DNA of 64,000 nt, from the NCBI RefSeq assembly GCF_005877005.1, contig NZ_SSNH01000001.1, positions 62,001 to 126,000 on the forward strand, written 5' to 3'. The position numbers and the translations under genes are program-made. The notes beneath the pieces were generated by a model that saw nothing but the letters and a program-made list of their open reading frames with translations, searched no databases and had not been told where the DNA came from. Source of the DNA: Sinomonas susongensis. Lineage in GTDB: Bacteria; Actinomycetota; Actinomycetes; Actinomycetales; Micrococcaceae. Positions 11,931 through 51,724 of this stretch are shown one piece after another. Each line of letters opens with the position of its first letter. Position 1 is the stretch's first letter.

Positions 11931-11983
11931 CGGTTCACACGGGTCCCGTCCTGACCCGGGAAGTCCGTGGCCGCGAGGCGTCA

Positions 11984-11989
11984 TAGAAT
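11984..11989 (+). promoter_or_regulatory. -10 element for the sigma factor gene
   Basis: TAGAAT at 11984-11989 would start transcription near 11996, giving a leader of about 45 nt with the GGAAGGA ribosome site at 12029-12035 in front of ATG 12042. Confidence 0.45.
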
Positions 11990-12041
11990 CGGCGGAGCGA
12001 ACTCCAACGTCATTGCGACCGTCGAGCCGGAAGGACGTTCC

Positions 12042-13792
12042 ATGGCCGCGAGCGCCGACTCCGAGGCACTGCCCCCAGCGACGAACAGCTGATTGCCGAG
12101 GTCCGCGCGGGGGCGACCGAGGCGTATGCGCAGCTCTTCGAGCGCCACCACAGCGCCGCCGTCGCCCTTGCGCGCCGGTATGCCCGCAACGCGAGCGACG
12201 CCGAAGACCTCGCCTCCGAGGGCTTCGCCAACGTGCTGTCCGCTCTGCGAAGCGGTTCGGGCCCCGAGGCCTTCTTCCGCGCGTACCTCTTCACCTCCAT
12301 CGCCCGGCTCGCGACCCGGGGCAACGTCAAGGCCGGGCGGCAGACACCGAGCGACGAGATGGAGCGGTACGAGGGCGAGCAGCCCTACGAGGATCCGGTC
12401 CTCGAGAGCTTCGAATCGGACGCTGTCTCAGCGGCCTTCAGCGCGCTCCCCGAACGGTGGCAGGCGGTGCTCTGGTACACCGAGATCGAGGGGATGCGGC
12501 CGGCTGCGGTCGCCCCGCTCCTCGGGCTCTCACCGAATGCCGTCTCCGCCCTCGCCCTCCGCGCCCGGGAGGGTCTCCGCCAGGCCTACCTGCAGGCGCA
12601 CGTCGGGAAAGCAGCGGTCGACGACGGGTGCGCGCCGTTCGCGGACCAGCTCGGCGCCTACGTGCGGAACGGGTTGAGTCCCCGCAAGGCGAAGAAGGTC
12701 CGCGAGCACGTCGAGTTCTGCCCCCGCTGTTCCGCGGCCCTGCTCGAGCTCGACGATGTCGGCGTCGGCATGCGGGCTGTGGTCTTCCCTCTCGTGACCG
12801 CACTGCCGTTCGCGGCGCCGGCGGCGGGGAAGATCGTGGGCGGGGGTCTTGCGCTGGGAGGCGGCGAGTGGCTCCGTCGGGCCGTCGGCAAGGTCGGCGC
12901 GGGGAATCTCGTCCTGGTCGGCGCCGCCCTGGCCATGGTCGTCGCGGGCGGCGTTGCCGTCGCGTCAATCGGGTGGTTGCCCCCTGATCCGCTCGTCGAC
13001 GCAGCCCGCCCGTTGGGTTCCGCGTCGTCGAGTGCCAGCGTCCTGCCCGAGGCCCCCGGTTCCGGCGCCTCCGGCGTTCCGGCTGAAGAAGCGGTGCGGG
13101 CCGGGGAAGCGGTGCGGGCCGGGGAAGCGGTGCCGTCTGAGGAAGCAGTGCCTATTGAAGAAGCAGTGCCTGTTGAGGAAGCAGTGCCTGTTGAAGAAGC
13201 GGTACCGGCTGAACGGGCAGCCCCGGCGCGACCGCTTGCGCGACGCCTTCCTCCTGCCGCGCCTGTCCAGGCGCCTGTCCCGGCGTCTGCACCGGTCGCT
13301 ACAGGGGTCCCGACACGTATCCCGGCACCTCCAACGGCGCCGGCTCCCTTCGCCCCCACGAGCCCCACGCTGCCGAGGCTCCCGCCGAGCCCGACGGCGG
13401 TTCCGACGGCGGTTCCGACCCCAAGCGCTGCCAGCTTCCCGTACACCCTCGCGGGGACGGTCTCGCATGCTTCGGGAATGCCGAGCACGGACTCGGTCCA
13501 GCTCAGGGCGAATCTGGCGCGACAGCCGTCCCAGCCCACCGAAGTGGTCGTCAGGATCCGCTACGGCTCCCTCGACCAGCCTGCGTGGTCGGCGCCGTGG
13601 TCGTGCTCGCCGTTCCTCGACGTGACCGTCCCCTCGACAACCCTCACGTGCGTAGCTCCGTTCGGCGGCGGTCCACAGCTCCCGGCGCTGACCCTCGCGT
13701 GGGGGACGGCCACCCCTCCGGGCATCGGCGGCGAGGCCGTCCTCGAGGAGCTCCTCACCGGAGCTGCAGTCTCCAACCGCTGGACCTTCTGA
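12042..13792 (+). CDS. membrane-anchored ECF-like sigma factor fused to zinc-binding anti-sigma segment; apparent frameshift at codon 11-12
   Basis: ATG 12042 with an ideal GGAAGGA site opens a frame that ends after 16 codons. From 12074 the -1 frame continues without interruption to 13792, and the joint peptide (MAASADSEALPP then SDEQLIAEVRAGATEAY) is what sigma-70 region 2 requires. The shift lies in the C5 run 12072-12076; one more C would restore the frame. The joined protein (about 583 residues) has sigma region 2 (about 13-75), region 4 (about 135-180), an H-x3-C-x2-C zinc motif (HVEFCPRC), a hydrophobic span VLVGAALAMVVAGGVAVASIG, a Pro/Ala-rich linker with seven hexapeptide repeats and a Trp/Cys-containing C-terminal domain. 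It resembles actinobacterial ECF groups with C-terminal anti-sigma and membrane extensions. Without frameshifting, the first in-frame GTG (12233) would cut region 2. Confidence 0.75.
13088..13213 (+). repeat. in-frame 18-bp minisatellite in the sigma factor linker
   Basis: Seven tandem 18-bp units encode EAVRAG, EAVRAG, EAVPSE, EAVPIE, EAVPVE, EAVPVE and EAVPAE. The units keep the frame, so copy-number change would alter linker length only. Confidence 0.9.
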
Positions 13793-13950
13793 CTAGAGGA
13801 TCACCGCAGAGGCTCAGGGGGCGCGACGTCGGCTTCCGCATGGTGAGACGATTTGATCGTCCCATGGAGTGGACTCCTAAGGTTAACGGGTTGTTCTGGC
13901 CTAGCCGGGTTCGTTGCCCGCGGCCCCATCACCCGAGCCCCAGGAAGACG

Positions 13951-21452: not shown

Positions 21453-22235
21453 CTAGCTTGCAGGCAGCCGGGACGCGAAGTCCACGACGGCAGCCGTGAG
21501 GAGGTCCGCCGAGACGTCATGGGTCTGCCCGTCGAGGCTGCCGTACGCCGACCCGGGGATCGCGGCTGCAGCGGCCTTCGCCCCGTCCTGCAGCATCTTC
21601 GGGCTCGCGCCGCCGGACAGCACGAGCGCGGGGACGCTGATCGTGCCGAAGACGTCTGCGGGGATGGGGCCGCCGAGAGCTGCGTCGTCGTAGGCGAGGG
21701 TCGGGGCGAGGCGGACGCCCCGGGGCCAGTACGGGGACTGGCGCATCCCCGCGATCGCCTCGGCGGGAAGGCCGACCCGCTCGAGGAAGAGGGTGAAGGC
21801 CCCGTCGTGGTCGCCGTCGTCGATGCGCTTTTTGAGCTCGAGCGTGTACGCAGCGGCTGCAGCGATGCCCTGCTCGTCGGTCGGGTACGGCGGCTCCCAC
21901 ATGACGAGTGCGCGGACTGGCAGACTCGCGGCGGCACGCGCCGCGAGGGCCGCCCCCGACGAGAAGCCCACGAGGACCGGGGGAGCCCCGGCGACGTCGA
22001 GCAGGGCCGCGATGTCGTCGATTTCGCGTTCGACCGCGAACGGCAGTGTGTCGGTGCTGTCGCCGCGCCCGCGGCGGTCGTAGTTGAGGACGTCGAAGTG
22101 CTCGGCGAGTGCGCTGGCGAGGGCCGCGTCCGCCTGGCGGTCGCTCGACGCGCCCGAGACGACGATGAGGGGTTCACCTCGGCCCGACCGATCGAAGGCG
22201 ATGACAGTTCCGTCCTGAGAGGTCACGGTTTCCAT
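21453..22235 (-). CDS. alpha/beta-fold hydrolase
   Basis: The 260-residue protein is a typical alpha/beta hydrolase: GEPLIVVSGASSDRQAD oxyanion segment, NYDRRGRGDS, nucleophile elbow GFSSGAA (G-x-S-x-G), an acidic residue in the VPALVLSGGASP region and His in LDGQTHDVSADLL. It resembles small non-secreted esterase-like hydrolases. Start is ATG 22235 (METVTSQDG); GTG 22244 would add three residues. It stands alone, convergent with the upstream exporter. Confidence 0.82.
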   Translation of the reverse strand: METVTSQDGTVIAFDRSGRGEPLIVVSGASSDRQADAALASALAEHFDVLNYDRRGRGDSTDTLPFAVEREIDDIAALLDVAGAPPVLVGFSSGAALAARAAASLPVRALVMWEPPYPTDEQGIAAAAAYTLELKKRIDDGDHDGAFTLFLERVGLPAEAIAGMRQSPYWPRGVRLAPTLAYDDAALGGPIPADVFGTISVPALVLSGGASPKMLQDGAKAAAAAIPGSAYGSLDGQTHDVSADLLTAAVVDFASRLPAS

Positions 22236-22353
22236 GGGCTTCACCGTAGGACGCGAACCACGATCGGGAAATGCTTGCGCGCGTCGGTTCTCGGTGAAAA
22301 GCTGCCTTTTACATCTGGATTATTGCCGTTCCGGCACTGGGTTTGGGGGGACC

Positions 22354-23286
22354 GTGGGGACCAAGGATGCTTCGAAGCTGCTCGGCGTTGCTGCAGCAGC
22401 ACTGACGTTGGCTCTGGCGGGGTGCGGGGGAACGCCGGTGTCGAGCGCGGGCGGCGTGTCGTCGTTCGCTCCGTCGTCCTCGGCGACGGCATCGCCGAGG
22501 ACCTCTCCGTCCGCAACCGGCACGCCTTTCGTGACGCCGACGGCGACACCGACGACGGCGGCGGCTCCGGCGTCGTCAGCCCCGCCCTACGCCGGCGCGG
22601 CGCTCGGCGGGACCTACGCCGCAGCCGTTGGAGGCGCAGGCATCCTCCCGGACGGCAGCGTGACCCCGGGCGCCACGAATCCCGCGGTGTCCCAGGGGGA
22701 CATCGGCACCACCATCTGTGTGTCCAACTGGACGACGACGGTGCGGCCGCCGTCGTCGTACACTTCCCAGCTCAAGCTGGACCAGCTGCGCGCAGGGTAC
22801 TCCTACAACGGCGATCTCAACCCCGCCGACTACGAAGAGGACCACCTCATCCCGCTCGAGCTCGGCGGCGCGCCCTCGGATGTGCACAACCTCTGGCCCG
22901 AGCCGTCGACGGCGGCGACCGGCGGCTCGAAGGCGAAGGACGAACTCGAGAACAAGCTGCACTCGCTGGTCTGCTCGGGGCAGCTCGCGCTGGCTTCCGC
23001 CCAGCAGGCCATCGCGTCCAACTGGTGGGATGCGTATGAGCAGTACGTTGCTCCAGCCGCTGCTCCTGCACCGGCGCCCGCGGCTCCGGCGCAGCCCGTG
23101 GCCCCGGCACCCGCACCCGCCGCTCCGGCGCAGCCCGATCCAGCACCGGCGGCACCCGCGCCTGCTCCTGTGGCCCCTGCCCCGGCAGGTGCCATGGCCA
23201 AGTGCAACGACGGCACCCTCTCGTACTCCGCGACCCACAGTGGAACCTGCTCCCACCACGGCGGCGTCGCGATCTGGTACAGATAG
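22354..23286 (+). CDS. lipoprotein with HNH-like (His-Asn) domain and C-terminal DUF3761
   Basis: This 310-residue protein starts at GTG 22354 (GGGGGGA upstream) with a signal peptide ending in the lipobox LAGC (about residues 21-24), so it should be lipid-anchored outside the cell. A Ser/Thr/Pro-rich stalk precedes a domain with EEDHLIPLELGG...NLWPEP (about 165-195), the pattern of HNH/His-Me-finger-like secreted proteins. A second Ala/Pro-rich linker leads to a C-terminal DUF3761 domain with C-N-D-G-T-L-S...C-S-H-H-G-G-V-A-I-W. A cell-surface nuclease is possible, but the full HNH catalytic set is not proven. Confidence 0.78.
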   Translation: MGTKDASKLLGVAAAALTLALAGCGGTPVSSAGGVSSFAPSSSATASPRTSPSATGTPFVTPTATPTTAAAPASSAPPYAGAALGGTYAAAVGGAGILPDGSVTPGATNPAVSQGDIGTTICVSNWTTTVRPPSSYTSQLKLDQLRAGYSYNGDLNPADYEEDHLIPLELGGAPSDVHNLWPEPSTAATGGSKAKDELENKLHSLVCSGQLALASAQQAIASNWWDAYEQYVAPAAAPAPAPAAPAQPVAPAPAPAAPAQPDPAPAAPAPAPVAPAPAGAMAKCNDGTLSYSATHSGTCSHHGGVAIWYR

Positions 23287-24377: not shown

Positions 24378-24555
24378 TGCTGCCTCCTGCACGTGGCTCG
24401 CCGCCTCCCGGCGGTTGAATCTGTCCGCGCCCAGCCTAGTTGCTCCCTGTGCGGGGGCGCTCGGCGTCACAGTTCACTCTTAGCCGAAGCCCAGCGGGAC
24501 CGGATGTTCGCACGGGAACGTTGAGTGGACGGAAGATCCCCCGAAGGGAGCAATC

Positions 24556-24840
24556 GTGGCACGGAAGTCCAACCCCGAGCGCGCGGCGAGGCGCTCGGCA
24601 GCCCGGGTCGTTGCGGACGGTGTGGCGGCCGCTGCAGGGGGAGTGGTCGCAGCGACCTTTGCCGCCGGCATCGTGATGTCGCCCGCACAGGCGCCCCAGG
24701 CTCGTCTCGGAGGCATCCACGAGGACCTTCAGCGAGCCGTTGCGCTTCAGCAGATCACGCCCGAACAGGCCGCTCTCTTCGAGGTCAAGCTCCAGCGGGA
24801 GATCCTCCGCGACACGTCCGACGACGAGTCGCCTGCCTGA
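24556..24840 (+). CDS. small hypothetical protein, 94 residues
   Basis: The 94-residue protein begins with a basic segment (MARKSNPERAARRSAARVV) followed by an alanine/glycine-rich hydrophobic stretch (about residues 20-42), then a soluble acidic tail with the short ITPEQAALFEVKLQREI helix. This could be a single-pass membrane or secreted protein, but the hydrophobic stretch is weak. GTG 24556 follows GGGAG. I do not recognise a family. Codon use matches neighbours. tRNA-Tyr follows about 130 bp downstream. Confidence 0.6.
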   Translation: MARKSNPERAARRSAARVVADGVAAAAGGVVAATFAAGIVMSPAQAPQARLGGIHEDLQRAVALQQITPEQAALFEVKLQREILRDTSDDESPA

Positions 24841-24886
24841 CGCTGGAGGGTGGCCGGGCGGTGCTACGACTGGGTCGGAGGGTCGA

Positions 24887-24916
24887 TTCGACTGGCGCCC
24901 CGATGTTCTGTAAGGT
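24887..24916 (+). promoter_or_regulatory. tRNA-Tyr promoter
   Basis: TTCGAC (24887-24892) and TAAGGT (24911-24916) are separated by 18 bp and would start transcription about 45 nt before the tRNA. Confidence 0.4.
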
Positions 24917-24968
24917 TGTCTTGCTCGCTCAGCGGAACGTTGCCCAGGCTCGTTCTGATGGCGTGCTC

Positions 24969-25050
24969 GGCAGATTACCCGAGCGGCCAAAGGGGGCTGA
25001 CTGTAAATCAGCTGGCATTGCCTACGGGGGTTCGAATCCCTCATCTGCCA
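24969..25050 (+). tRNA. tRNA-Tyr (anticodon GTA)
   Basis: An 82-nt class-II tRNA: acceptor GGCAGAT pairs with ATCTGCC, D arm CCGAGCGGCCAAAGG, anticodon stem-loop CTGACTGTAAATCAG with GTA, a long variable arm and T arm GGGGGTTCGAATCCCTC. Discriminator A at 25050; a full CCA is not encoded. A terminator follows. Confidence 0.97.
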
Positions 25051-25056
25051 CCGCGG

Positions 25057-25082
25057 AAACCCCGGTCTACGGACCGGGGTTT
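25057..25082 (+). terminator. terminator after tRNA-Tyr
   Basis: Eleven-bp perfect stem (25057-25067 with 25072-25082) with loop TACG, followed by CGTCGT. Confidence 0.8.
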
Positions 25083-25143
25083 CGTCGTACCCGGCGCCTC
25101 TTCGCCGGCTCCGTCGCGTGAACTCCGTCTCGCCCGCTTGAAT

Positions 25144-51544: not shown

Positions 51545-51724
51545 ATGGCTGATATGGAGCCCCAGACTGCCCAAGGTACAGCGGTGGAGGACGCCACATC
51601 CCGCCCAGACCAGGGCAATTCCTCTTTGCGGTCCGCACCGGCCGGCGCCCCCGGCATGCGCTCCGGGATCACTTGGTGGGAGGCGTGCGGCGGATGGAGT
51701 TCGCGGTACGCCCTCAGCATCTAG
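51545..51724 (+). CDS. possible 59-residue peptide of unknown function
   Basis: ATG 51545 follows AGGAG (51534-51538) at 7 nt and opens 59 codons. The product has an acidic, Gln/Thr/Ser-rich first half and a Trp-rich end (GITWWEACGGWSSRYALSI). Third codon positions are less GC-biased than in neighbours, so this may be a recently acquired or decaying gene, for instance the remnant of the N end of a larger protein, or a small peptide. I do not recognise it. The complementary strand has an open frame of 92 codons (51442-51720) but without a better start context. Confidence 0.35.
   Translation: MADMEPQTAQGTAVEDATSRPDQGNSSLRSAPAGAPGMRSGITWWEACGGWSSRYALSI

Follow-up and report, generated by a model that had tools for sequence, protein, structure and literature searches.

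A sigma factor gene of Sinomonas susongensis begins in one reading frame and continues in another. It lies in the window, i.e. the whole 64,000-nucleotide stretch of DNA analysed here, which comes from an assembly of 36 contigs and 3.77 Mb. Is the product of this gene lost, is the deposited sequence wrong, or does the frame change serve some regulatory purpose? The sequence-only reading had offered three explanations, an inactivating mutation, an assembly error and slippage on a run of five cytosines (C5). The first two are both still live, while slippage found no support, as an in-frame start was present in 42 of 42 homologous loci.

Start codon, reading frames and domains

From ATG 12042, frame 0 indeed encodes only the 16 codons that had been read from it (MAASADSEALPPATNS). 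The opening codons, M-x-A-S-A-D, match MTASAD of near orthologs, which identifies frame 0 as the coding frame at this start. The sigma frame (-1) lies one base back and, read from 12071 (GCC CCC AGC), gives APSDEQLIAEVRAG...; it is open from 11987 to the stop ending at 13792, and its earlier assignment to sigma region 2 was confirmed by the Sigma70_r2 match. Among the 15 Sinomonas genomes compared (including that of the window), the closest orthologs are those of G014 and Sinomonas humi MUSC 117 (G008). The features of the locus are as follows:

11978-11991, + strand: GCGTCATAGAATCG, -10-like (TAGAAT), conserved upstream; candidate promoter element
12029-12035, + strand: GGAAGGA, ribosome-binding site predicted from the alignment
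12042-12092, + strand: original start (ATG, 12042-12044), 15 further codons and premature TGA (12090-12092), frame 0
12066-12071, + strand, bounds approximate to a few bases: interval of frame loss, net 4 nt shorter than in G014 and S. humi (DNA alignment of eight sequences)
12071-13792, + strand: remainder of the sigma factor gene, start-less and uninterrupted, stop included
12072-12076, + strand: C5 run, part of Ala-Pro-Ser codons, same as in the two nearest orthologs
12134-12319, + strand: Sigma-70 region 2 (PF04542), E 2.2e-11
12422-12571, + strand: Sigma-70 region 4 type 2 (PF08281, Sigma70_r4_2), E 3.1e-5, 24.0 bits, under the Pfam cut-off of 25.7
12629-12730, + strand: zf-HC2 anti-sigma zinc finger (PF13490), E 2.4e-7, 31.2 bits against a cut-off of 22.2
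12908-12964, + strand: predicted transmembrane (TM) helix, Kyte-Doolittle maximum 2.53 over 19 residues
13016-13429, + strand: Pro/Ala-rich linker, 46% Pro+Ala over 138 residues
13430-13789, + strand: C-terminal domain, presumably outside the membrane, 120 residues, no match in the Pfam search; the structural model is beta-rich and of low confidence (mean pLDDT 52)

The NCBIfam model of ECF sigma factors, TIGR02937, was matched with 68.4 bits (cut-off 42.9). No ATG, GTG or TTG occurs in the sigma frame from 11987 to 12232, which rules out an upstream start in that frame. The earliest one, GTG 12233, was also rejected as a start, as it lies inside the region 2 match. A second genomic copy was ruled out as well: no paralog of comparable similarity was detected in the strain's own genome, where the two other matches had 26% identity and 45% identity over 64 residues of the Pro-rich part, respectively.

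The element GCGTCATAGAATCG is identical in G014, S. humi, G001 and G013, carries one change in G012 and two in G011, and is reduced to TAGAATCG in G007. Inspection by eye revealed no conserved -35 partner, and the element may therefore represent an extended -10 promoter. As for the ribosome site claimed to precede ATG 12042, GGAAGGA is present and aligns with the same motif in G014, S. humi, G001 and G007 and with GGAAGGAA in G013; it is absent at the aligned site from G011 and G012. Since the promoter-like element, the ribosome site and the start codon have all been kept, the strain probably still produces a transcript and the 16-residue peptide; the sigma factor itself would then be missing, or present at trace level only.

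Trace expression might arise if ribosomes that have finished the 16-codon peptide reinitiate at CTG 12089 or ATT 12092 (CTGATT overlaps the TGA). These near-cognate codons are in the sigma frame, overlap the stop and precede the region 2 match, which begins at 12134, so the product would miss little beyond the variable linker; the low dN/dS of the sigma domain (see below) also agrees with continued expression. However, the two codons merely encode Leu-Ile of the conserved QLIAEV, and CTG-AT is common to G001 and G013, whose genes start with ATG. By visual inspection, the 18 bases preceding CTG 12089 and ATT 12092 contain nothing resembling a ribosome site, and CTG and ATT rarely serve as starts. 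We regard reinitiation as unlikely.

The C run and the linker in related genes

The proteins of near orthologs open with MTASAD, followed by a short variable linker and then by SDAQLIAEVRAG. Compared with the two nearest orthologs, the window gene matches in frame 0 to about codon 8 and in frame -1 from 12071, with 4 nt fewer between. The frame is therefore lost upstream of the C run, and not within it as had been proposed. Both G014 and S. humi possess the identical C5, in frame, within Ala-Pro-Ser codons. The run comprises six cytosines in G001, four in G013 and five in G014 and S. humi, always with the frame kept, and no such run was present at the aligned position in G007, G011 and G012. 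As C5 is in frame in the nearest relatives and run length varies while the frame is kept, the lesion lies elsewhere than in the C run. The linkers of the other orthologs differ from those of G014 and S. humi by 0 or 6 nt; all these differences are multiples of three, as expected if the frame is under selection. The 4-nt difference of the window gene would fit either one 4-base deletion, or the loss of a single base combined with an ordinary in-frame difference.

The same comparisons bear on programmed -1 frameshifting or transcript slippage on the C run, by which the level of the sigma factor would be tuned. Read through the junction, the -1 frame meets no stop, and re-pairing of a CCA-bound Pro tRNA on CCC is conceivable. 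Slippage should, however, have been recognisable by relatives sharing a conserved C5 and a shifted frame, and in both nearest relatives C5 is conserved while the frame is unshifted. An in-frame start at or upstream of the matched region was found in all of the 42 homologous loci, i.e. seven from the genus (7/7 with in-frame ATG, S. humi counted here), nine further ones (L025-L033) and 26 from a family search. The nine come from a search that gave 12 loci, from which L034 and L035, both weak matches in Pro-rich sequence, were dropped and S. humi was moved to the genus count. The family search obtained matches in 62 of the 197 genomes and supplied 30 loci, including four from genus members (the window among them), so the 42 are part of a larger set. 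This start criterion was lenient, accepting any ATG, GTG or TTG in the open frame; the nearest start lay at most 20 codons from the matched start in 40 of the 42 loci, and about 39 and 72 codons away in L059 and L051, respectively. No slippery heptamer X_XXY_YYZ was found in frame 0 of 12042-12092. Pseudoknot-free folding of the downstream RNA (12077-12150) was unremarkable (z -0.40, with 66 of 200 shuffles equally stable or more so), and the leader RNA folded no better than its shuffles (z 1.01). Five cytosines make a short run for slippage, and C5 is rarer in the window than in shuffles, yet common in absolute count (155 matches of CCCCC on both strands, overlaps counted, versus 308 expected). 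Given the missing conservation, the missing heptamer and the unremarkable RNA structure, slippage on the C run was rejected as unsupported, and we consider programmed frameshifting extremely improbable.

A related idea is that the 16-codon leader, standing before a sigma gene that has no usable ordinary start, keeps the sigma factor at a very low level, produced only by reinitiation at CTG/ATT or by rare slippage, and that selection has retained this level in the lineage. This appears very improbable.

Assembly error or genuine frame loss

If the deposited sequence were erroneous, the gene of the strain would be intact and the frame would have been lost only on paper, within the linker. Several observations agree with this. 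The remainder of the gene is uninterrupted and was under purifying selection, and the five other genomes of the same sub-clade all have an intact gene. Moreover, isolated frameshifts in genes with good protein matches are often errors; for a single frameshifted gene with BLASTp validation, the authors of the GeneTack survey of 2013, as excerpted, expected a sequencing error and not a real indel (PMC3711429).

Against an error stands the frame control carried out on the rest of the window. Open reading frames (ORFs) of the window were compared with syntenic ORFs of G014, G007, G001 and G013 at thresholds of at least 70% identity and at least 60% coverage, yielding 53 rows that cover 55,167 bases; the sigma gene itself was excluded by these thresholds. 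The control may miss genes broken near their middle, and some of the rows are possibly shadow ORFs. While 48 rows passed automatically, five were flagged: an ORF extended too far, the real gene starting downstream (51558), a gene beginning at ATG 52990 (52976), an ORF over-extended in the relative (10442), a shadow ORF inside the sigma gene (12370, - strand) and the window edge (63736). In a broader ORF listing, 21456-23283 proved to hold two neighbouring genes of opposite orientation, both of which can be read in the window, and the pieces at 13909, 20127, 26720 and 42173 were weaker ORFs overlapping or beside stronger matches. Pieces 8709 and 10442 were taken as shadow or over-extended ORFs because they are covered by stronger gene matches. 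Re-reading six stretches of this listing gave the same outcome, save for 24537-25103, which is ambiguous between strands. No other frame fault was found among the 52 other rows, which argues against poor assembly and rules out an assembly that is generally frame-faulty.

The frame control also brought up a 59-codon ORF at 51545-51724 (+ strand; MADMEPQ...GITWWEACGGWSSRYALSI) that is conserved in G014 (L065:4248). A region containing TTGACA is conserved upstream of it, and the gene downstream is presumably CitE-like.

Two further points weigh against an error. The C run of the window is neither shorter nor longer than that of the two nearest orthologs, and a one-base error would require an extra in-frame difference of 3 nt to account for the 4-nt shortening, which is possible since linker length varies. 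Modern short-read assemblies also contain fewer frameshift errors, which would count here if this assembly is of that kind. Taken together, an assembly error is a genuine possibility, although we think it rather doubtful.

Selection on the sigma domain bears on both explanations. Nei-Gojobori dN/dS was 0.108 between the window and G014, 0.116 between the window and S. humi, and 0.077 between G014 and S. humi. A value of about 0.11 indicates that function was maintained over most of the gene's past. In the domain, lineage-specific codon changes (synonymous/replacement) numbered 14/4 in the window, 11/4 in G014 and 7/0 in S. humi, and are not clearly skewed. Unique replacements at sites invariant in the other six sequences amounted to eight in the window, two in G014, one in S. 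humi and none in G001 and G013; G007 and G012 had 11 and 10. In relative-rate comparisons of the sigma domain, replacements leaned toward the window in eight of eight cases (12:6 to 15:4, p 0.019 to 0.263), for instance 13:7 and 15:4 with G001 as outgroup. Three neighbouring genes did not share this lean, with 26:39, 24:40 and 24:51 against G014, and 22:19, 21:21 and 23:24 against S. humi; Fisher tests of the sigma domain versus these genes returned p 0.001 to 0.157 in six non-independent comparisons. The zinc finger and TM part showed the opposite direction in five of eight comparisons (2:9, 1:5, 5:11, 1:11, 5:7), and no acceleration was seen in the relative-rate counts of the C-terminal part. 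We read this as a gene that worked until recently, with relaxed constraint as a weak, inconsistent hint. These data tip the balance only a little from an error toward a real break.

We infer that the assembly is correct at the break and that the product is lost. A recent inactivating indel in the linker between the start and sigma region 2 is the explanation we moderately favour and rank as most likely, with assembly error as the main rival and programmed slippage as very unlikely. A small, recent deletion-type change in a non-conserved linker would have cost an ordinary ECF sigma/anti-sigma fusion its frame, and the sigma switch of the strain is most probably inactive. Overall, the case is an ordinary one, in which a gene of a known kind has either lost its frame recently in a single lineage or been affected by an artefact.

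The locus in Sinomonas and its known relatives

Across the 15 genomes, the gene is intact in seven, frame-broken in one (the window), reduced to its C-terminal half in two and absent from five. It is flanked by fpr and a permease gene in the genomes where both sides could be seen. In G002, G003, G004, G009 and G010, fpr and the permease gene are 111-201 bp apart, and no sigma sequence was found in these five short gaps, the one match being of 12 residues in G004 (E 0.003). The gap amounts to 1307 bp in G005 and 1189 bp in G006. Neither of these two genomes gave a match at E 0.001 in the genus-wide ortholog search, and their halves were recognised from the gap sequence. The G006 gap matches residues 289-538 of the G012 protein (39% identity, E 1e-53, a figure helped by the Pro-rich part), and the G005 gap matches its residues 409-536 (38%, E 5e-16) in another frame than the Pro-rich part. 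Further matches in both gaps were low-complexity Pro-rich sequence and were set aside, and neither gap contained a sigma or zinc-finger match.

Both remnants correspond to the TM/Pro-rich/C-terminal half. The one in G005 spans about 3960-5270 of L077. That in G006 (L078:4366-5331, - strand) is an open frame of 322 amino acids with its own ATG, possibly encoding an orphan membrane-anchored protein. Apart from the sigma locus, and far from it, G014 carries an extra fpr copy (G014:C1:3669404-3670828, 91% identity).

When a tree was built from three proteins encoded next to the gene in 14 genomes (G011 left out), the window grouped with G014, S. humi, G007, G013 and G001, all five with intact genes, and the losses fell in the other half of the genus, where internal branches are weak (34-50) except for the G002-G004 group (100). 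C-terminal halves in two genomes and adjoining neighbours in five of the 15 indicate that loss of the locus is tolerated in the genus, while the sub-clade of the window is otherwise without loss.

A search of titles and abstracts on Sinomonas and sigma factors returned nothing on this gene. By architecture, rather than by published group models, it resembles the ECF52/53 kind of fusion, joining sigma domain, zinc finger, TM helix and Pro-rich part. According to the excerpted text of PMC5826349, the ECF52 protein SCO4117 of Streptomyces coelicolor consists of a sigma domain, a zinc finger, a TM segment, a proline-rich extension and a carbohydrate-binding module. The window gene, likewise from an actinobacterial host, shares the first four and has a further C-terminal domain. 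It differs in that this domain is without a Pfam match, the carbohydrate-binding module of ECF52 not being demonstrated here, and in that its start codon is out of frame. As for ECF53 and ECF48, excerpts of PMC8999054 describe a C-terminal fusion that carries a zinc finger together with one or two TM helices; this fusion is presumed to serve as the anti-sigma part, and activation is expected to proceed by proteolysis. The window gene also has a C-terminal zinc finger and TM fusion, a likeness drawn from description. ECF52/53 are also mentioned in excerpts of PMC10766802. An ECF52 sigma factor is presumed to be kept at the membrane by the zinc finger that it carries, until proteolysis frees it (PMC8999054 and PMC5826349), and by analogy the sigma factor of the window would behave in this way.

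Frame breaks in comparable genes have also been described. The singleton frameshifted genes of the GeneTack survey (PMC3711429, as excerpted), which are recent pseudogenes or errors, are similar in that they occur in one lineage, with intact homologs elsewhere and no conserved frameshift site; the window gene differs by a break at its very 5' end and an uninterrupted remainder. In Streptomyces clavuligerus, the ortholog of SCO4117 is an ECF52 gene split by a stop codon, perhaps through a sequence error in the opinion of its reporters (PMC5826349, same excerpts). That break is located in the proline-rich region, whereas the one in the window comes right after the start codon.

Two things follow. 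When the closest relatives have an identical homopolymer in frame, a frame break next to it has another cause. And a single genus presents a one-protein sigma/anti-sigma switch in four states, namely intact, frame-broken, reduced to the C-terminal half and absent; with such different states in one genus, the locus offers a natural series for what fused sigma factors are needed for.
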